Shown here one piece after another: positions 23,659 through 37,172 of a stretch of DNA of 64,000 nt. The notes under the pieces were generated by a model. That model was given only the letters and a program-made list of their open reading frames with translations, was not told where the DNA came from and made no database searches. The stretch lies in contig SVFC01000002.1 in the NCBI GenBank assembly GCA_015057035.1, forward strand, positions 1 through 64,000, written 5' to 3'. This stretch comes from Lachnospiraceae bacterium (lineage in GTDB: Bacteria > Bacillota > Clostridia > Lachnospirales > Lachnospiraceae). How positions within the stretch are numbered: the first letter of the stretch is position 1; each line of letters starts with the position of its first letter. The translations under genes were made by a program, and so were the position numbers.

Positions 23659-23687
23659 TTTACTTTTCATACAATATTTGCTATGCT
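23659..23687 (+). promoter_or_regulatory. Possible promoter of the cytosolic chemoreceptor
   Basis: TTTACT (23659-23664), 17 bases, TATGCT (23682-23687), 40 bases before the chosen ATG. Confidence 0.4.
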
Positions 23688-23727
23688 ATATCTAGGTATG
23701 TGTAAAAACAACTACGGGGGAAAAAGA

Positions 23728-24723
23728 ATGTTATTTGGACAAAAGAAAATGAACGAAGCAGTTGAATTGGAAAGACAGCAGGCAAAAGAGATTTTGCAGG
23801 ATGTGCATGCAACGGTTGCAAACCTCGAAGTTTCTATTGATGGTGTGACAGAGAAGATTGGACATGTGTCAGATGAAACCACCAATATTTCCAGTGTCAT
23901 GGAAGAATTTACTGCATCTATGCAGGAGATGTCTTCTAACATTAACGAATTGTCTGATACCATGGGAGAGATGGACGAATCTTTTCAGCAGATGAGCGAG
24001 GAAGCCAAAGAAGGCGCAGACTATGCCCAGAATAGCAATAATGATGCATACGACATCATGAAACGTTCAGAGGAAGAACGTCGTGAAGTAGAGGCTAAGG
24101 CTGAGAGCGTAGAGATTGCTATGCGCGAGAAAATTGAACAGTCCAAGAAAGCGGAACGTATATTAGACCTGACCAAGGATATTTTAGAGATTGCAGACCA
24201 GACGAACCTGTTAGCTTTAAATGCTTCTATAGAGGCTGCAAGAGCTGGAGAAGCTGGAAGAGGCTTTGCTGTAGTTGCGGATGAGATTACCAAGCTTGCA
24301 TCTATGACCAGTGTTACCGCTAGCGAAATCAATGAGATTTCCAACACGGTTCTTACTGCTGTAAGTCAGTTGGCAGAAGAGGCCAATAAGGTAGTTGAAT
24401 TCATGAGAGACAAAACCATCGGCAGTTACACAGAATTAGTTGAGGTAGGACATAAATATCAGAATGATTCGAAAATTATGTTTGATAAGATGCAGGATTT
24501 TGCATATATTGCTCAGAATTTGTCAGAGCAGTTAGCGGATGCGACCAAAACCATCGAATCTATTCGTTCTGCTTCTACAGAATCTGCTAATGCCATGGGA
24601 GAGTTAACAGATAGTGTTATGATTATCTCAGAACATGTGGATGAGCTTCGAGAATATAACGAAGAAAATGATAGAGTAGCCAATGAAATTAAAAATAAAA
24701 TTGTGAAAAGTGGACGCTTTTAG
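23728..24723 (+). CDS. Soluble methyl-accepting chemotaxis protein
   Basis: 331 residues, no transmembrane span, almost wholly the helical MCP signalling domain. The hairpin tip [35 protein letters not shown] is intact. The first 30 residues ([23 protein letters not shown]) form a short helix and offer no classical sensor domain, so input must come from a partner or from this helix. ATG at 23728 is chosen since GGGGG lies 6-10 bases upstream; 15 further upstream residues look non-native. The terminator stem begins within the final codons. Confidence 0.9.
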
Positions 24724-24750: not shown

Positions 24751-24779
24751 TTTACAAATGCAATATTAGTGGATATAAT
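24751..24779 (+). promoter_or_regulatory. Promoter of the Tad-like operon
   Basis: TTTACA (24751-24756), 17 bases, TATAAT (24774-24779). Transcription would begin near 24786, leaving a leader of about 138 bases before the first start codon. Confidence 0.75.
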
Positions 24780-24785
24780 ATGCTT

Positions 24786-24923
24786 ATCTTTTTTTCTAAC
24801 AAATGTTTTGTAGTGGAGTACGAAACATTTGTCATTGCCGTTGTGTCACGGCTTTACCCATTTTTAGGTAAACAATGTCTTGCATATGGTTTCTTATGCC
24901 GTTTTTACGGAGAAAGGAAAAAT
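24786..24923 (+). promoter_or_regulatory. Structured 5' leader of the Tad-like operon
   Basis: Five consecutive hairpins are readable. ACAAATGTTTTGTA (24799-24812) pairs with TACGAAACATTTGT (24819-24832), a 14-base stem with one G-U pair. GCCGT/ACGGC follows (24837-24841, 24848-24852), then TTTACC/GGTAAA (24853-24858, 24867-24872), GCATA/TATGC (24882-24886, 24895-24899) and CCGT/ACGG beside the ribosome site (24899-24910). The density of stems suggests an RNA regulator. It does not match the c-di-GMP riboswitch consensus I know. No coding frame fits. Confidence 0.5.
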
Positions 24924-25106
24924 ATGAAAGAAGTATTTCAAGAATATGGTGGTGTTATTGTAACAATTATTGCAATTGTTTCATTAATTGGTGTTATTTC
25001 TGCTGTGATAGGAACAGGAGAAGAAGGAATCATTGGAACTGCATTTACGGAGCTCATAGAGAGTTTCTTTGAGCAGGCGGGAGTATCTCTGGGGACGGAA
25101 ACGTAA
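24924..25106 (+). CDS. Pilin-like small membrane protein (Flp-like)
   Basis: 60 residues, MKEVFQEYGGVIVTIIAIVSLIGVISAVIG then an amphipathic tail. The EYGG followed by one hydrophobic helix recalls the mature N-terminus of Flp/Tad pilins, whose conserved processing-site motif includes EY. Unlike standard Flp prepilins there is no positively charged leader before a Gly cleavage site, so it may be used unprocessed. The ATG at 24924 has AAAGGAAA upstream. First gene of the Tad-like operon; two further small proteins with the same N-terminal pattern occur at 27968 and 28076. The pilin role is inferred. Confidence 0.6.
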   Translation: MKEVFQEYGGVIVTIIAIVSLIGVISAVIGTGEEGIIGTAFTELIESFFEQAGVSLGTET

Positions 25107-25118
25107 AAGGGGGACACC

Positions 25119-26183
25119 ATGGAACTAGGGAAAGAATATTTTGGCCCTCTTTGGAAATATGTCACGAATCAGGATATTACGGATATTGATTACAACGGTA
25201 GTGAGTTATGGGTTACAAACGTATATAACGAGCGCTACAAGGTGAATCAGCAATATGTGGAAGAGAATATTACAGCGTCATTTGTGGAGCAGTTTACCCA
25301 ACGAATTGCAAATGTGGTTAGTAAACAGTTTAACAAAAGAAATCCGGAGCTTGAGGCAGAAACCAGCGAATTGCGTGTCACAATATTACATGAATCAGTG
25401 GCAAAATCCGGGCGTACAATTAGTATTCGAAAGACACCACCGGTAATCAGATTGACGGCGAAAAAAGCCCTAGAAGAAGGGTTTTGTACCAAAGAGATCT
25501 TGGCGTTATTAATTAATTGTGTGGAAAGTCATATGAATCTGACTTTTTGCGGAATGCCAGGGATTGGGAAAACAGAGTGCGTAAAGTTTTTCTCACAGTT
25601 TATTCCTGCCCATGAGAGAGTCATTACCATTGAGGATACGTTGGAAATCCGCTACTCAAAAACGAACCCAGGAAAGGATTGTGTGGAGCTCAAGGTCAGT
25701 GAAGATACCTTTGGTTATGCAGATGCCATTAAGTCATGTTTGCGATTAAATCCCAAGTGGATTATGTTGTCTGAGGCGCGGTCCAAAGAAGTGAAATATC
25801 TATTAGAGAGCTGGTCCACTGGGGTGCGAGGAATGACAACGCTACATACGGATGATGTGCGCAATGTGCCTGACAGAATTCTGAATATGCTGGAGAATCG
25901 GTCCGATGCAGACCGTATGGAAAATGACATTTATCAAGCCTTGGATGTAGGAGTACTGGTGCGGAAGAAAACGGACGAGGACGGAGTCACCAGACGTTAT
26001 ATTGACCAGATGTGTTTTTATATTCGTGAAAAAGGGAAAAACACCGTCGAGATGGTTGTTTTTGATGGGAAATGTATTTTACAGAAGCTACCAGATAGTA
26101 TTCAGCACGTATTTCACAGAAGCGGGATAGAGAATGCATTTTATAGCGACCTGTTAGAGGAAGTGTTAGGAGGTGCAGAATGA
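25119..26183 (+). CDS. TadA/CpaF-family secretion ATPase
   Basis: 354-residue type II/IV secretion ATPase that would power pilus assembly. Visible: Walker A GMPGIGKT (145-152), Asp box VITIEDTLEIRYS (168-180), Walker B region KWIMLSEARSKEV (213-225) and His box GMTTLHTDD (238-246). N-terminal part (1-110) has the CpaF-type DIDYNGSELWV and SGRTISIRKTP motifs. The Walker B EAR replaces the more usual GEVR. The start is 12 bases after the pilin-like gene and the end overlaps the next gene by ATGA, so these genes form one operon. Confidence 0.9.
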   Translation: MELGKEYFGPLWKYVTNQDITDIDYNGSELWVTNVYNERYKVNQQYVEENITASFVEQFTQRIANVVSKQFNKRNPELEAETSELRVTILHESVAKSGRTISIRKTPPVIRLTAKKALEEGFCTKEILALLINCVESHMNLTFCGMPGIGKTECVKFFSQFIPAHERVITIEDTLEIRYSKTNPGKDCVELKVSEDTFGYADAIKSCLRLNPKWIMLSEARSKEVKYLLESWSTGVRGMTTLHTDDVRNVPDRILNMLENRSDADRMENDIYQALDVGVLVRKKTDEDGVTRRYIDQMCFYIREKGKNTVEMVVFDGKCILQKLPDSIQHVFHRSGIENAFYSDLLEEVLGGAE

Positions 26184-27565
26184 TTTATTTTGTTACCTTT
26201 GTTCTGATATATGGGTTGCATGTGCTATTGAAGTTAAGTATATGGACCTGTCTTGCAATCGGTGTTTTTGCAATCTGGATGATTCCAAAATATAGAACAA
26301 GATATAGAAAAATGAAGGAATATCAACAACGTTTCTTTGATGTGTCTATGTATTTGGATACCATTTTGTACTCTTTTATGAAAGAGGAGAAGGTGGAACT
26401 GGCGGTGAGGGATGTGCATCAGGCCCTTCCAGAGGGGAAGATGAAAATGGTTGTAGGCATGGCCCATGATTATATGATGATGGCTTATGAAGAGGTGGAA
26501 TTTCTCGGAGAATCCCTGGCTATGATTGATCAGGAGTATCCTTGTAAACGAATGCGTGATGTACATAAGTTTATGACACATGTGGAGTATTACGGAGGGG
26601 AAATCGAGAAGCCGATTCGTCTTCTGTTGGCAGACAAGTCCCGTTGGGAAAAACGCATTAAGGAAGAGATTGCCAGTCGCAATAAACAGTTTGTGGATGT
26701 TTTGTTGTCGGTGGTTGCGTCATTGGTGATTTGTAGTGCTATTTTGTATCTTCCAATTATGGATATGGATATTGGTGCGGAGCCACTACTTCAGGTCTTG
26801 GCATTTGTATTAATTGTCCTTGATGCAGGAATTTTGTATCGGGCGCAAGGGTATGTGACAGTAGATTGGATTGGTTTGCAGTTGCAGGAAAATGAGAATA
26901 TCTATGAAAAGAAGCTGCAGGAATATCAGGACTATGATGAACAGAAACAGAGAAAAATGTCATACATTTTAGCTGTTATAGGAGCAAGCGTTACAGGGAT
27001 TGCTTTTTGCGTGGGTAATCCATGGATGACAATGTTGTGCCTGTTGGTAACGCTCTTATTTGTAAATCAACACAAAGTGGGAAAATATCTTTTGGAGAAA
27101 AATCTGAGGAGAGAACTCATGTATGCATTTCCTAACTGGTTGTTAGATCTTGTGTTATTACTTCAGAGTGAAAATGTTCAGATGGCATTGCAAAAATCCA
27201 AAGAATTTGTGCCAGGTGTGTTAAGAAAAGAGTTGTATCAATTAACAGACCAGTTAGAATTGGAGCCGGAATCCGCAAAGCCTTACCATGAGTTTTTGAA
27301 GGATTTCTATATTCCGGAAGTACATTCTGCCATGGGGATTTTGTATTCGATTGCCATTGGAAACAGTGGAAATGCGGATAAACAGATTAGCGAATTGGTA
27401 GACAAGAATCTGGAACTTTTGGATATGACAGAACGTCAGATGCTGAAGAGACAGGCAGGCGGAATGCAGGTTCTGTTTTTGCTGCCTGTTTTGGTGGCAT
27501 CCTTCAAATTAATCGCAGATATGATGGTGCTAATGTTGCAATTTATGCAGAGTTCTTTCATGTAG
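26180..27565 (+). CDS. TadB/TadC-like inner-membrane platform protein (double-length)
   Basis: 461 residues. Hydrophobic segments near the N-terminus (1-35), a soluble helical block (40-165), paired spans (about 170-190 and 202-222), another pair (about 255-272 and 275-293), a second helical block (300-430) and a final span (about 436-458). The soluble block-membrane pair pattern occurs twice, as expected if TadB and TadC type T2SSF platform halves were fused in one chain. Both families are normally about 300 residues each and encoded separately. Identity rests on position behind the ATPase and topology; similarity to T2SSF motifs is weak. Confidence 0.7.
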   Translation: MIYFVTFVLIYGLHVLLKLSIWTCLAIGVFAIWMIPKYRTRYRKMKEYQQRFFDVSMYLDTILYSFMKEEKVELAVRDVHQALPEGKMKMVVGMAHDYMMMAYEEVEFLGESLAMIDQEYPCKRMRDVHKFMTHVEYYGGEIEKPIRLLLADKSRWEKRIKEEIASRNKQFVDVLLSVVASLVICSAILYLPIMDMDIGAEPLLQVLAFVLIVLDAGILYRAQGYVTVDWIGLQLQENENIYEKKLQEYQDYDEQKQRKMSYILAVIGASVTGIAFCVGNPWMTMLCLLVTLLFVNQHKVGKYLLEKNLRRELMYAFPNWLLDLVLLLQSENVQMALQKSKEFVPGVLRKELYQLTDQLELEPESAKPYHEFLKDFYIPEVHSAMGILYSIAIGNSGNADKQISELVDKNLELLDMTERQMLKRQAGGMQVLFLLPVLVASFKLIADMMVLMLQFMQSSFM

Positions 27566-27575
27566 AGGAGGGAAA

Positions 27576-27953
27576 ATGAGTCAGATTATTAAAGCATTTA
27601 CAGGAATTTTTATGGTGTTGTTTTTGATGGCTACAAGTATGGAAATTCTTGGTGCATTTGTGCAGACTTTGCAGGTGCAGAACCTACATGGTCAGGTGAT
27701 TGATGAATTGGAGAATAGCGATTATTCGATTGCCGTGTTGGAGGAAGCGTTTCAAATCGCCAAGAATCATGGAGTGACCCTAGAGGTTTTATTGTATTTG
27801 GAGGATGGAAGCTTTATGCGATGTGATAGTCAGAGCACAGTGCCAGCAAGTCTGGGACATGTGGAAATGGCAGAAGTAGCAGTGAGTTGTCCGATCCAGA
27901 TTCCCTTTGTGGGCTTGGATAAAAGACATAGACTGGTAGGATACGCTAGATAG
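27576..27953 (+). CDS. Minor pilin-like membrane protein (TadE/DUF4320-like position)
   Basis: 125 residues: MSQIIKAFTGIFMVLFLMATSMEILGAFVQTLQVQNLH, then a helix and a small beta-rich region. One N-terminal hydrophobic helix followed by a short extracytoplasmic domain is the layout of TadE-like or DUF4320 minor pilins. GAGGGAAA ribosome site. Two conserved-looking cysteines (RCDSQ, VSCPIQIP) may form a disulfide. Ten bases after the platform gene, 14 before the next. Family name is not certain. Confidence 0.6.
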   Translation: MSQIIKAFTGIFMVLFLMATSMEILGAFVQTLQVQNLHGQVIDELENSDYSIAVLEEAFQIAKNHGVTLEVLLYLEDGSFMRCDSQSTVPASLGHVEMAEVAVSCPIQIPFVGLDKRHRLVGYAR

Positions 27954-27967
27954 AAAAGGAGGACAAA

Positions 27968-28066
27968 GTGGAACAGATTATAGAGGAATATGGAGTTGCA
28001 ACGGCATTACTTCTAGTGGGTTGTGCAGTAACTGGAGGACTATGGATGCTATTTCAATGGATGTAG
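27968..28066 (+). CDS. 32-residue micro-pilin-like peptide
   Basis: GTG at 27968 with a very strong AAAAGGAGG site. Sequence (M)EQIIEEYGVATALLLVGCAVTGGLWMLFQWM: short charged start, EYG motif, then one membrane helix to the end. The start closely parallels MKEVFQEYGG of the first gene and MKQVIEYFG of the next one. It sits between the minor pilin-like and the third small pilin-like genes with ten-base gaps. Too short for ordinary gene callers, but its ribosome site and family resemblance support it. Confidence 0.7.
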   Translation: MEQIIEEYGVATALLLVGCAVTGGLWMLFQWM

Positions 28067-28075
28067 GAGAACGAT

Positions 28076-28270
28076 ATGAAGCAGGTAATAGAATATTTTG
28101 GAAATACTCTTGTGACGATTCTGGTGGCATGGTGTTTGCTTGGGTTGTTCACAGGACTAACAGGCAGTCTTAGAGAAATGGCAGAAGCATCTCTGGAACT
28201 TACCACTCCTCAATTAGCGGAAAATCAGGCTTTTTTTGATTATCAGACGATATCGGAGGAGAGAGAATGA
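28076..28270 (+). CDS. Third small pilin-like membrane protein
   Basis: 64 residues, MKQVIEYFGNTLVTILVAWCLLGLFTGL, a single N-terminal membrane helix, then a polar tail of about 30 residues rich in Glu, Gln and Ser. The EYFG motif and helix match the other two small proteins of the operon. Its stop overlaps the start of the 523-residue protein by ATGA, so translation is coupled. Probably a structural or adaptor subunit of the same apparatus. Confidence 0.65.
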   Translation: MKQVIEYFGNTLVTILVAWCLLGLFTGLTGSLREMAEASLELTTPQLAENQAFFDYQTISEERE

Positions 28271-29838
28271 AAAATATTATGCTTACCATAATCGGGGTGT
28301 TAATCAGCATATATACGCTTGGACTTTGTTTTGGGATAACTTCTATTGCAATTCGCCAAAACATATTGGAAGAACACGTTTCTAGGGTGCTCATCAGGAC
28401 GTTAAAAGAGGAATATCAGACCGAAGATGTGAAAGCTGCTTATGATAAACTCTATAATGAGTTAAAACTGAACGTGGGGAACAATGGGTATGTTGATGTG
28501 GAGATTCAAAAGATGGATCTGGACAAGGGCGTTATTCATGTGGTGGTAACAGAACATTTTCTACAGATGAATGGCAAGGAGAAATCCATTACATGCGAAA
28601 AAACTGTAATTGTAGATGAATCCGTAAAAGCAACCTATAGCGCAGGAGCCGTCGCAGCCGTGAATGCTACACTACAGAGTGATGTATATAATAACGCTTA
28701 TGATTATTATCAGGAGTATGAAGGTGCCATGATTTTTAAGCCCACAGATGATACAGAAGCGGGTGTGTTCTATGGAACCAGAGCAAAAGAATCGTCCAGT
28801 GGAAAATTGGTGTTTGAGACGATAGGCTGGCGTGTAACAGTAAAGGATAAAGACGGACAGATTATGGACCAGGTATATTATGCCTTAGATGGTCAGTATA
28901 TTAGAATTGCAGACAATCGCAGCATAGACGGGTACAAGTATAAGCTATACAACATTTCGTTAGAAACCCTGAAAGAACGTTTGTCAGCGTCGGCAAATGC
29001 TGCGCTTAAAAAAGCAGATTGTACGATGGTATTTGATGCATGTGTTGTAGTAAAGCGAAATGGAGTGCGCAAAGGTGGAATTACTGACAATGGAATTGAA
29101 TGGGGGACAGTGTATACCACTTATGATGGAATTGTAAATGCGGTAAACTGGTCCGCCAAGACAAAAGAATTGCTAAAGTCTTATTTTAACAAAGAGATTG
29201 CGGATATGTTTTTTGAGGTTAGTCTCAGTTGTGGAACGGGGATAGAAAGTGTATCTGGCAGTGGACGGTATTGTTATGGAACAGAGGTTACCATTGATGC
29301 AGTTCCACAGAGTGGTCATAGTTTCCTAAATTGGGTTGGTTCCTTTGCCACTACAGAAAAGCGACATACTTTCACGGTGTATGAAGATGTGAAGCTCCAG
29401 GCCGTCAGTACACGGGATGCAGTAGCAGTTCATTTTTATCGGAACCGGGATAGTAGAGATGAGTGCATAGAAACACTATACTATTCTTTTGATTCCCAGG
29501 TAAAAAAACTGCCAGCTATGGAATGGACGAAGCCAGGGTTCTATCAAACAGGATGGTCTACCTCGCGAATTATTGCCCAGCCTTATTTTGATGTGGAACA
29601 AATTATTACGGAAGATTGGCTTGGTAAAGTTGCCCCCAGTGTTAACCTATACGCCACATGGGCGCCGAAGCGATCCATAGAAGAGGATATACGTTTTATT
29701 AGTTCAAAGTATTATAAAGATGAATTCGGGGATTGGGTGCCTCAGGAAGAAGGAGGGCTGTCTGATACATCTATCTGGAAATTAGATGAAGAATATCGTG
29801 CAATCCTGGATGAAATCTTTATGAATCAGGAAGAATAA
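28267..29838 (+). CDS. Large surface protein of the Tad-like operon with InlB-like repeat region
   Basis: 523 residues. One N-terminal hydrophobic helix (about 4-30), then a pilin-like helix (HVSRVLIRTLKEEYQTEDVKAAYDKLYNEL), then a large extracellular region. Residues about 320-380 (SGRYCYGTEVTIDAVPQSGHSFLNWVGSFATTEKRHTFTVYEDVKLQAVST) follow the pattern of Listeria-Bacteroides (InlB B-like) repeats, and about 385-470 (VHFYRNRDSRDECIETLYYSFDSQVKKLP...YQTGWSTS...LYATWAPK) looks like a second, with the typical GWST and LYATW endings. No LPxTG anchor. Likely a tip adhesin or large pilin; the role is inferred from domain plan and position as last gene. Confidence 0.65.
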   Translation: MKNIMLTIIGVLISIYTLGLCFGITSIAIRQNILEEHVSRVLIRTLKEEYQTEDVKAAYDKLYNELKLNVGNNGYVDVEIQKMDLDKGVIHVVVTEHFLQMNGKEKSITCEKTVIVDESVKATYSAGAVAAVNATLQSDVYNNAYDYYQEYEGAMIFKPTDDTEAGVFYGTRAKESSSGKLVFETIGWRVTVKDKDGQIMDQVYYALDGQYIRIADNRSIDGYKYKLYNISLETLKERLSASANAALKKADCTMVFDACVVVKRNGVRKGGITDNGIEWGTVYTTYDGIVNAVNWSAKTKELLKSYFNKEIADMFFEVSLSCGTGIESVSGSGRYCYGTEVTIDAVPQSGHSFLNWVGSFATTEKRHTFTVYEDVKLQAVSTRDAVAVHFYRNRDSRDECIETLYYSFDSQVKKLPAMEWTKPGFYQTGWSTSRIIAQPYFDVEQIITEDWLGKVAPSVNLYATWAPKRSIEEDIRFISSKYYKDEFGDWVPQEEGGLSDTSIWKLDEEYRAILDEIFMNQEE

Positions 29839-29883
29839 AAAAGGCGATAACGATTGTCACAGGACATTCGTTATCGCTTTTTG
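29838..29883. terminator. Bidirectional terminator between the Tad-like operon and the CNNM gene
   Basis: Stem AAAAAGGCGATAACGA / TCGTTATCGCTTTTT with one bulged G; T-runs on both strands. It serves the convergent genes. Confidence 0.85.
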
Positions 29884-29884
29884 A

Positions 29885-31165
29885 TTATTCTTCAGTTATT
29901 TCTGGATCTGGAAGTTTGATATAGATACGTTCGATACGGTTTTTATCTACTTCGTCAATCTTTAGGAGAACACCGTCTTTTGTGAAGACGATTTCGTTCT
30001 TCTCTGGTAAGTGGTCTAGGAGTTCTAAGCAGAAACCACCGATGGTATCGTAATCCTCAGAACTGAATTCTACGCCAAGTTCATCGCTTACGTCATCTAA
30101 GTTGGTTGCTCCTAAAACCATGAATTCACGTTCGCTAAGCTGTGTGATTTCATCTACTTCGTCGGTATCGTATTCGTCACGAATCTCGCCAACGATTTCT
30201 TCAAGCAAGTCTTCTAATGTTACGAGACCTGCAGTTACACCATATTCGTCAAGTACGATAGCCAGAGAAATGGAATTCTGACGCATCTCTACTAACAAGT
30301 CGGAAGTGTTCTTGTGTTCATATGTAAAATATGTCTCACGAAGAATATCGCGGATGGAGAAGTCTTCTCTGTTATCCACAAGGAGAAGGTCCTTCATATT
30401 GATAATACCGATTACATTATCGGTGGTGTCTTCGTAAACTGGAAGACGTGTATATTTGTCCTGACGGAACAGTTCAATTAGTTCGTCGTAGGTGGCATCC
30501 ACCTGAACAAAAGCCATGTCAATTCTTGGTACCATAACTTCCTTGGCAAGGGAATCGCCGAAGTCGAATACGTTGTGAATCATTTCGCGTTCTTCATCTT
30601 CGATTTCACCACTTTCCTGACTTTCGTCAACAATGGTACGAATCTCATCTTCCGTCATCGCGGTATCTGCATCTGAAGGATTTATGCGGAAGAGAAAAAG
30701 TACACCAGAAGCAAGTTTGTTAATGACAAAAATGACAGGTGTTAGTACAAACATCAATACATCGATAATTCCTGCAATGGCAAGGGCAAAGGCGTCTGCT
30801 TTAATGGTTGCCATGGTCTTTGGAGTTACTTCACCAAAAATAAGAACGATAAGTGTTAACACACCTGTTGCAATACCTGGACCAGCATCCTGGAACAGAT
30901 GGGTTGCAAGTATAGTTGCAATAGAAGATGCACTAATGTTTACAATGTTGTTACCGATTAAAATTGCAGAAAGCATCTTGCCACTGTCGCTGGTTACTTT
31001 TAAAACCCTAGCTGCACGTTTGTCGCCATTTTCTGCTAAATTCTTCATTCGGATTCTGTTTGCTGTTACCAGTGCTGTCTCAGATGATGAGAAAAACGCT
31101 GATAAAAATACTAAAACAATGATACTAACTAATTGAGCTATTTGCCCGGGCCCAAATTCTGGCAT
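29885..31165 (-). CDS. CNNM/CorC (HlyC) family membrane transporter-like protein
   Basis: 426 residues. Four N-terminal spans of a DUF21/CNNM domain (about 10-155: SIIVLVFLSAFFSSSETALVTANRIRMKNLAENGD), two CBS domains (about 205-330: VMVPRIDMAFVQVDATYDELIELFRQDKYTRLPVYE; VEMRQNSISLAIVLDEYGVTAGLVTLEDLLEEIVGEIRDEYD) and a C-terminal CorC_HlyC domain. Related proteins mediate magnesium or cobalt efflux; older hemolysin naming is misleading. Ribosome site AAAGAGGTAAT precedes the ATG. No neighbour helps define the ion. Confidence 0.9.
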   Translation of the reverse strand: MPEFGPGQIAQLVSIIVLVFLSAFFSSSETALVTANRIRMKNLAENGDKRAARVLKVTSDSGKMLSAILIGNNIVNISASSIATILATHLFQDAGPGIATGVLTLIVLIFGEVTPKTMATIKADAFALAIAGIIDVLMFVLTPVIFVINKLASGVLFLFRINPSDADTAMTEDEIRTIVDESQESGEIEDEEREMIHNVFDFGDSLAKEVMVPRIDMAFVQVDATYDELIELFRQDKYTRLPVYEDTTDNVIGIINMKDLLLVDNREDFSIRDILRETYFTYEHKNTSDLLVEMRQNSISLAIVLDEYGVTAGLVTLEDLLEEIVGEIRDEYDTDEVDEITQLSEREFMVLGATNLDDVSDELGVEFSSEDYDTIGGFCLELLDHLPEKNEIVFTKDGVLLKIDEVDKNRIERIYIKLPDPEITEE

Positions 31166-36853: not shown

Positions 36854-36867
36854 GAAAAAAATATGAG

Positions 36868-37033
36868 TTTAGATAGAGGTTGCGCGATTTATGAGTAGCC
36901 TGCAGGATGTAGCAGAGCAGAGGATTGCAGGTAAAAGGGGAGAGCGCCGAAGGACATAATGACTGCAGGTTATGATCCTGGGCATAAGGTGAAGAACTTT
37001 ATGACTGTCATCGCAAGATGTTGAGCTATCAGA
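36868..37033 (+). promoter_or_regulatory. Lysine riboswitch (L box) aptamer
   Basis: Pattern GATAGAGGTTGCG, ATGAGTA, AAAAGGGGAGAGCGCCGAAGG, CTGGGCATAAG and the closing CTATC match the L-box consensus. The P1 stem GATAG/CTATC encloses the aptamer. Followed by an intrinsic terminator at 37058-37095 and then dapA, which fits lysine-dependent transcription termination of the diaminopimelate branch. Confidence 0.93.
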
Positions 37034-37057
37034 ATCAATTTTGTGTGTGGATTTTGA

Positions 37058-37095: not shown

Positions 37096-37172
37096 TTGCT
37101 TAAGCGTATTTTGCTTACTGTAAAAGATGATAGACAAACTCTTATTTAATGAACATCTAGGAGGAATTGAGC

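Follow-up and report, generated by a model that had tools for sequence, protein, structure and literature searches.

A Tad-like operon with a putative fused platform protein and a modular large protein in a Lachnospiraceae bacterium

Background

The generic model of the type IV filament superfamily comprises an ATPase, a platform protein and a major pilin (PMC6668835), and the locus described here raises the question of what kind of machine would be encoded by an operon that holds little more than such parts. The operon lies on the forward strand at positions 24924-29838 of a 64,000-nucleotide stretch of DNA from a Lachnospiraceae bacterium (assembly GCA_015057035.1, contig SVFC01000002.1, positions 1 to 64,000; hereafter referred to as the window), which forms part of a 192 kb contig in a draft genome of 2.4 Mb that is 84.7% complete. 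Its seven genes, with a promoter-like site ahead of them and a strong hairpin behind, encode in order p1, a secretion ATPase, a 461-residue platform protein, p4, p32, p5 and a large protein of 523 residues, the first 118 residues of which are referred to as surfN (Table 1). An original prediction, made from the DNA letters and their open reading frames (ORFs), had read the locus as a minimal and possibly separate branch of the Tad family ending at a strong terminator; the listed parts and the terminator were all found in place.

The reading favoured here, with moderate confidence, is that the operon encodes a compact filament machine which belongs to the type IV filament superfamily, stands closest to the Tad system (type IVc pili, T4cP) and would present a modular tip protein resembling PilY1. 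No filament has been observed, which weighs against this reading along with the points given below for each of the components.

Results and Discussion

Recurrence of the operon in related genomes

A relative of the platform protein (search with P0003) is present in 55 of 145 related genomes, namely 54 of the 62 of the same genus and one of another genus of the family, and such a recurrence within the genus indicates that the operon is not a product of chance. A sample of 391 genomes of the class yielded the operon in the window's genome and in three others, one of the same family (G470) and two of other families (G240 and G475); platform-profile matches in G386 and G307 were set aside as transporter-type by length, helices and neighbour, as judged by eye. 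Two or three platform genes occur in seven genomes. The operon is conserved in related genomes, with 46 relative loci mapped by a simple gene caller, the ATPase being called beside the platform in 40 of these and p4 in 44. The search with the ATPase returned, among the matches listed, at least 18 loci titled Lachnospiraceae bacterium, Roseburia sp., Agathobacter sp., Pseudobutyrivibrio sp. and Lachnobacterium bovis.

The suggestion that the genes ahead of the terminator represent all the parts of the system proved too strong, since the relatives hold additional genes (p48, a longer p160 and a separate large secreted protein) and two genes are fused in the window. The operon of the window is a reduced and partly fused version of the gene set of its relatives, in which p5 is perhaps a short version of p160, as judged by eye. 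A divergent subtype was observed at L080 and L086 (genomes G043 and G007), where MPNESSEIGSGFVK takes the place of MKEIF..YG at the start of the first gene.

The platform protein

The 461-residue protein had been proposed to be a double-length platform of the TadB/TadC type. Out of 47 platform proteins (46 from relatives and that of the window), 38 were aligned (alignment A1), and T2SSF is the commonest matching family among these (16/38, best E 3.4e-4), followed by DUF2207_C (14/38, best E 0.0019), both counts including matches up to E 10. When the profile of the 38 members was run on the 391 class genomes, it matched an adjacent pair of canonical genes in G229, TadB with its N half (E 8.7e-4) and TadC with its C half (E 2.1e-6), and a TadC in G352 (E 9e-7). 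In profile-profile comparisons the whole platform gave E 1.9e-6 (prob. 89.7) against 15 TadB sequences and E 2.8e-4 (prob. 40.8) against ten TadC sequences, the corresponding values being 5.7e-7 and 0.005 for the N half and 2.8e-6 and 6.1e-5 for the C half, whereas an unrelated CorC-like membrane family used as a control gave E 0.21 and 0.24. Judged against this control, the scores identify the protein as a predicted double T2SSF-type platform, with a TadB-like N half and a C half that appears to match both TadB and TadC. The original proposal of a TadB/TadC-like protein of double length therefore agrees with the family profiles, in which both halves match.

These matches are all at low identity, weak but consistent at the level of the family, and several results weigh against the assignment. 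The single window protein gave no T2SSF match in hmmscan, and a T2SSF search of its own genome located five places, none of them at the operon. In a second test, performed on the ORFs of a further set of loci, only one TadC (1.3e-7) and one TadB (0.0011) were matched by the platform profile, leaving the majority of canonical genes of both types unmatched, and the C half is closer to TadB than to TadC. Apart from these points, a PDB search with the platform profile returned nothing convincing (best E 0.61), and among NCBIfam models the best score on the platform family is E 0.0012, from MAG1210_fam, which reaches four of the 38 members when matches up to E 0.1 are counted. The absence of T2SSF similarity, named beforehand as a finding that would speak against the prediction, thus holds for the single-sequence scan but not for the family profiles.

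The platforms of Tad systems have been argued to arise from the fission of a two-domain ancestor with a TadC-like N domain (PMC6668835). Since the N half of the present protein is TadB-like, a later re-fusion in the gene order would fit better than the retention of such an ancestor.

The small proteins and the question of their processing

The three tiny proteins of the window (p1, p32 and p5) have a common nine-residue start ending in Y/F-G, and the single helices predicted for them are supported. The usual start of p1, p32, p48 and p160 (the p5 of the window) in the relatives is M-[KE]-x-[IV]-[IFV]-x-x-[YF]-G, followed by a hydrophobic helix; [YF]G falls within residues 6-12 in 43 of 46 p1, 33 of 49 p32, 32 of 40 p48 and 28 of 42 p160 sequences, and a Gly within residues 8-13 in 45, 44, 34 and 30 of these, respectively. 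The start is thus shared by four classes, p4 and surfN mostly starting otherwise (Y/F-G in 8/45 and 3/22), which is a point against the favoured reading.

Acidic residues were counted in 153 sequences of relatives aligned at the first Gly within residues 8-13, with 15 ORFs dropped and 24 rows lacking such a Gly, the misassigned ORFs among the latter remaining in the totals. They number 21 at +1, 1 at +2, 0 at +3, 2 at +4 and 16 at +5, followed by 1 in all at +6 to +13, 1 at +14 and 0 at +15 and +16, so that the 16 of 153 at +5 compare with a total of 5 over all fourteen of the remaining positions between +2 and +16, in counts taken over related sequences and uncorrected for kinship. The bearers of the +5 acid belong to p160 (10), p48 (5) and p32 (1), at loci of three families, L128 and L129 among them. 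An acid at +5 with a Gly at -1 reads as the pattern of a prepilin cleavage site, here with a putative nine-residue leader, and cleavage of the tiny pilins after Gly9, by a peptidase whose gene lies elsewhere, is probable. Points against cleavage are that the acid at +5 occurs in none of the 46 p1 sequences and in none of the five pilin-like proteins of the window, and that the literal PilFind motif (14 uncharged residues; PMC3244431) matches at Gly9 in no more than 4 of the 177 rows of p1, p32, p48 and p160 and in none of the 46 p1, the fits being few because charged residues often stand at +1.

The alternative that the pilins are uncut, MKxIIxxYG staying in the mature subunit and its EYG replacing the E5-Y6-G7 start of mature Flp with no prepilin peptidase involved, is a doubtful one, although several observations speak for it. 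In p1, Y8 is kept as well as G9 (40 and 42 of 46), which is more than a cleavage site requires; acidic residues are common among the first nine (E3 and E7 in p1), unlike a basic leader; 156 of 253 genes with an N-terminal helix, some of them misassigned, have no further in-frame start upstream; and canonical Flp1 proteins keep [GA]xxxxE at 27 of the 30 best-scoring loci, the other three being wrongly picked ORFs. However, all four paralogue classes conserve Gly9 but vary at residue 7 (E, H, Q, T and others), which is what a -1 site would lead one to expect, and the peak of acids at +5 is also against uncut pilins. Leaderless pilins, initially the favoured explanation, were in part reduced to a rival on account of this peak. 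The fuller version, a type IV filament of uncut pilins with a start of their own, in which the peptidase is not needed and the engine consists of two proteins, is considered slightly less probable again. The p1 alignment comprises 14 of the 46 sequences, those of L080, L086 and L087 (p1 lacking the Y-G start) being excluded, and its invariant columns were not used.

The gene content of the locus bears on the same issue. No A24 match lies in the operon of the window, in line with the prediction that it lacks TadV, and the two A24 peptidases of the genome, located by the genome-wide search, are on other contigs (C40 and C11), none being on that of the window. The absence of the peptidase is not a trait of the cell, A24 peptidases being present in 135 of the 145 relatives, with no exception among the 55 that hold the operon (the window's own genome is one of these), and also in G240, G470 and G475. 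Since every operon genome checked has one, the absence of a peptidase from the operon proves nothing. One of the two matches is the TadV of a canonical Tad locus (L084, contig C11), which carries an Flp1 with G|AGVVE, a CpaF-type ATPase and TadB- and TadC-like genes; with this locus and another prepilin peptidase in the genome, the lack of a peptidase gene does not mean that the system works without one. The MSH loci are reported all to lack a prepilin peptidase and possibly to borrow that of another system (PMC6668835).

The further absences predicted, TadZ and a secretin, hold among the seven proteins of the operon by gene content and a Pfam scan in which no TadZ model was run, and no canonical Flp with a G|xxxxE site was found among the genes. 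Pfam gave no match for p1. The assignment of p4 as TadE or DUF4320 was dropped, not being supported by profile matches; its DUF4320 match is non-significant and confined to 2 of 24 sequences, which also tells against the favoured reading. The canonical family Flp1_like occurs in 108 of the 145 relatives, including 53 of the 55 with the operon. At L070 and L071 (G053 and G020), a protein of 71-72 residues downstream of the platform gene, in the position of p35 of the relatives, matches Flp1_like (E 2.7e-10 and 1.3e-9), the match beginning at model position 10 and missing the leader part, and has an extra N-terminal hydrophobic stretch; this match counts in favour of the proposed machine.

The large protein and its C-terminal module

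Residues 1-118 of the 523-residue protein align end to end with 21 of 22 separate surfN proteins of the relatives (one of them in two pieces; best matches 117-138 residues), and residues 127-523 align with separate large proteins of the relatives, mostly just after a start resembling a signal peptide, as judged by eye. It is thus recognised from these alignments as a fusion of a pilin-like protein to the operon's own modular cargo, found among the loci examined only in the window and L042. The predicted InlB-like repeat was confirmed as Flg_new_2 at residues 328-380 (E 3.2e-8), whereas the single surface protein envisaged gives way to a pilin-like part joined to cargo. In the stretch available, several of the relative loci yielded no large protein.

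The final approximately 70 residues constitute a module kept on otherwise differing proteins, namely InlB/Flg_new repeat proteins, subtilases (L068, L088, L221 and L228) and a glycine-rich-domain protein (L227). L068 and L088 helped to build the module profiles and match by construction; the independent matches are those of L221 (G062, 5.3e-7), L228 (G013, 4.8e-17) and L227 (G046, 8.7e-21). No Pfam match overlaps the module in the proteins scanned. A profile of 17 rows detects the module in 51 of the 145 genomes, 48 of the 55 operon-bearing genomes and 3 of the other 90, and within the genus the operon-module table is 48/6/2/6 (Fisher p 0.00035, kinship uncorrected). Seven genomes with the operon lack a match; in the three with the module only, the contigs that bear it are 4.4 to 9.7 kb long, and that of G061 also carries surfN- and p160-like genes. 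The copies of platform and module agree in G020 (three of each) and in G023, G044, G053 and G060 (two of each), and disagree in G042 and G046 (two platforms, one module) and in G016 (one platform, two module matches, one of them partial). A general sorting signal was rejected as the role of the module, there being about one per operon and not many proteins bearing it.

A pseudopilus pushes cargo out in type II secretion. A device of this type, in which a short filament would push the module protein through the thick wall for release instead of display, is improbable, though somewhat less so than its weaker competitor below; in its favour, most cargo proteins of the relatives have a start that looks, by eye, like that of a Sec-secreted protein, and several have subtilase domains, but in the window and in L042 the cargo is covalently joined to a pilin-like protein with a helix anchor, an arrangement that suits display and not release.

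Variation was also observed around the cargo genes. At L225 (G052) the module gene, encoding 1464 residues, lies 1.1 Mb from the operon beside a gene for a 538-residue Big_2 protein and near a transposase-like gene. L226, L227 and L229 have extra genes between surfN and the module protein, including those for SH3_3, CW_binding_2 or Flg_new proteins, with a helicase-like AAA protein among them at L229.

The secretion ATPase

The ATPase had been predicted to be of the TadA/CpaF type, and a CpaF/VirB11 type agrees with its PF00437 match (E 3.7e-20, above the Pfam cut-off) and with its nearest solved chains by PDB profile, VirB11 (7.5e-27) and then CpaF (1.7e-22). Walker A is intact, as are the SEAR and TTLHT boxes. 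In a tree of 35 ATPases, ten of the 44 operon ATPases (40 of mapped loci, that of the window and three others) form one clade (support 99/96) separate from PilB/PilT, which agrees with the separate branch proposed. Grouping with another secretion class was examined by the approximately unbiased (AU) test, which rejects a placement with VirB11/TrbB (p 0.00066), and hence an origin from type IV secretion systems (T4SS), and lets stand a placement with TadA/CpaF and an Enterococcus plasmid ATPase (p-AU 0.186). The operon ATPases are thus resolved by sequence as a putative clade of their own within the CpaF/VirB11 group; the Enterococcus sequence is the nearest outgroup, but long branches make its sister place and the position of the operon ATPases unsure, which counts against a firm link to Tad.

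A device for DNA transfer or uptake (VirB11-like conjugation or competence) is highly improbable, for although VirB11 is the best named NCBIfam profile of the ATPase (below its cut-off) and a plasmid sequence its nearest outgroup by long branches, the ATPase, in contrast to conjugative T4SS, falls outside the VirB11/TrbB clade, no VirB or relaxase gene was noticed in the neighbouring gene maps (no relaxase-directed search was made) and the flanks in many relatives carry genes resembling CorC and IMPDH.

The Enterococcus casseliflavus plasmid locus itself (L165, 2646-7074) encodes a CpaF-like ATPase followed by two separate membrane proteins of TadB/TadC size and small single-helix proteins (53, 128 and 122 residues) with no obvious prepilin site, and is perhaps another unusual, plasmid-borne Tad-like system.

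Boundaries and neighbouring features

The coordinates of the features are given in Table 1. Promoter-like sites such as that ahead of p1 are about as frequent as in shuffles (19 versus 14.3, sd 4.4); by eye, 12 of 15 aligned loci have a TTTACA box ahead of p1, the second box being kept less strictly. No Rfam match, as a sign of riboswitch control, was found upstream of p1 or in 11 relative loci. The terminator hairpin was missed by a simple scan with a loop limit of 8. Directly 5' of the operon lies a gene for a chemoreceptor-like protein (23683-24723, +; MCPsignal E 3.6e-29) in which no membrane helix was found, and a lysine riboswitch (36866-37036, +; 94.5 bits) lies upstream of an ORF at 37167.

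Table 1. Features of the operon (window positions) and the TadV gene of the canonical Tad locus on contig C11
Feature	Position	Strand	Basis or description
Promoter-like site TTTACA-N17-TATAAT	24751..24779	+	11/12 consensus matches
p1, 60 residues, candidate major pilin, first gene	24924..25106	+	MKEVFQEYG, hydrophobic helix, C-terminal part
Secretion ATPase, 354 residues, CpaF/VirB11 type	25119..26183	+	PF00437, PDB profile matches, tree
Putative fused double T2SSF-type platform (TadBC), 461 residues	26180..27565	+	family-profile comparisons
p4, 125 residues, one N-terminal helix, minor-pilin-like (TadE-like unproven)	27576..27953	+	
p32, 32 residues, GTG start	27968..28066	+	MEQIIEEYG, helix
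p5, 64 residues	28076..28270	+	MKQVIEYFG, helix
Large surface protein, 523 residues	28267..29838	+	
surfN part, residues 1-118 of the large protein, minor-pilin-like	28267..28620	+	aligns with stand-alone proteins in relatives
Large extracellular part with InlB-like repeat, residues 127-523	28645..29835	+	alignment, Flg_new_2
C-terminal carrier module (RFIS..Y...GGL...S.W...Y...L)	29611..29832	+	profile searches
Terminator hairpin with T run, between operon and converging gene 29885-31165	29837..29886	.	-25.8 kcal/mol
A24 peptidase (TadV) of canonical Tad locus L084	C11:12979-13278		

Comparison with known systems

With Tad/Flp systems (T4cP, such as L084) the operon has in common a CpaF-type ATPase gene followed by a TadB/TadC-like platform and tiny helical pilins in one locus. 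It differs in having TadB and TadC in one protein where Tad has two single-T2SSF genes, in lacking TadV, TadZ, RcpC and an Flp1 with G|xxxxE, and in the separate clade of its ATPases. Set against the generic superfamily model, a secretion ATPase is present (PF00437) and a T2SSF platform is recognised by the family profiles only, while for a major pilin with a class III signal the observations are a conserved Gly near residue 9 and a +5 acid limited to 16 of 153 sequences and absent from p1. Some clostridial 'no Flp_2' tad-like loci have no protein with an apparent prepilin motif, yet possess tadV, tadZ and rcpC (Imam et al. 2011, PMC3244431); from that description they resemble the operon in being tad-like and lacking an apparent prepilin motif, and a fused platform is not mentioned for them in the account available.

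PilC/PilY1 of type IVa pili (T4aP) is a secreted non-pilin protein with a constant C-terminal carrier and varied N-terminal parts, displayed at the tip by minor pilins (PMC8179133). The plan of a constant C-terminal carrier is similar here, but the module has about 70 residues, no Pfam match and a Tad-like machine, and the C-terminal beta-propeller of PilC/PilY1 (IPR008707) was absent from Pfam scans of 18 large proteins, including that of the window. CpaL of Caulobacter (PMC12607857) and the Kil tips of Myxococcus (PMC12075869), in Tad-type systems, combine a minor-pilin base with a large modular protein, a plan common to all three; CpaL has a vWA domain (PMC12607857), and the pilins of both have predicted signal peptides or prepilin sites (PMC12607857, PMC12075869), none of which is evident in the window. 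A plan of display like that of PilC/PilY1, modular pilins and CpaL has, by analogy, most likely been reached here with other parts. New here are the shared nine-residue start, the fusion of surfN to cargo and the module of about 70 residues; no description of a fused TadB-TadC platform, of the operon or of the module was found in titles and abstract openings of open-licence PMC articles, among the matches listed.

A possible mechanism

In the proposed filament machine, a hexamer of the ATPase would work beneath the fused TadBC platform, which would draw the tiny single-helix pilins from the membrane into a filament, with p1 as the probable main subunit and p32, p5 and p4 as minor subunits. A complex of minor pilins with the surfN helix would sit at the end of the filament, which would carry the 523-residue protein with its minor-pilin-like helix and modular extracellular part. 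The C-terminal module may dock on the minor pilins, leaving the remaining extracellular part to bind its target, as in adhesion, or to cut it. Presentation would be by covalent fusion in the window and usually by means of a separate secreted protein in the relatives, and as the module-bearing part is mostly such a protein, it may work like PilY1 or the tip protein CpaL of Caulobacter.

Conclusion

The operon is common in gut bacteria titled Agathobacter, Roseburia and Lachnobacterium. If the proposed reading is true, its extension machine, with one ATPase and one platform, ranks among the smallest in the superfamily, and if the pilins are indeed uncut, the prepilin peptidase, treated elsewhere as essential, would be dispensable here. 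The operon makes testable both the need for pilin cleavage in assembly and the manner in which Tad-type pili of single-membrane bacteria carry changeable tip proteins, and the C-terminal module provides a handle for finding such tip proteins.

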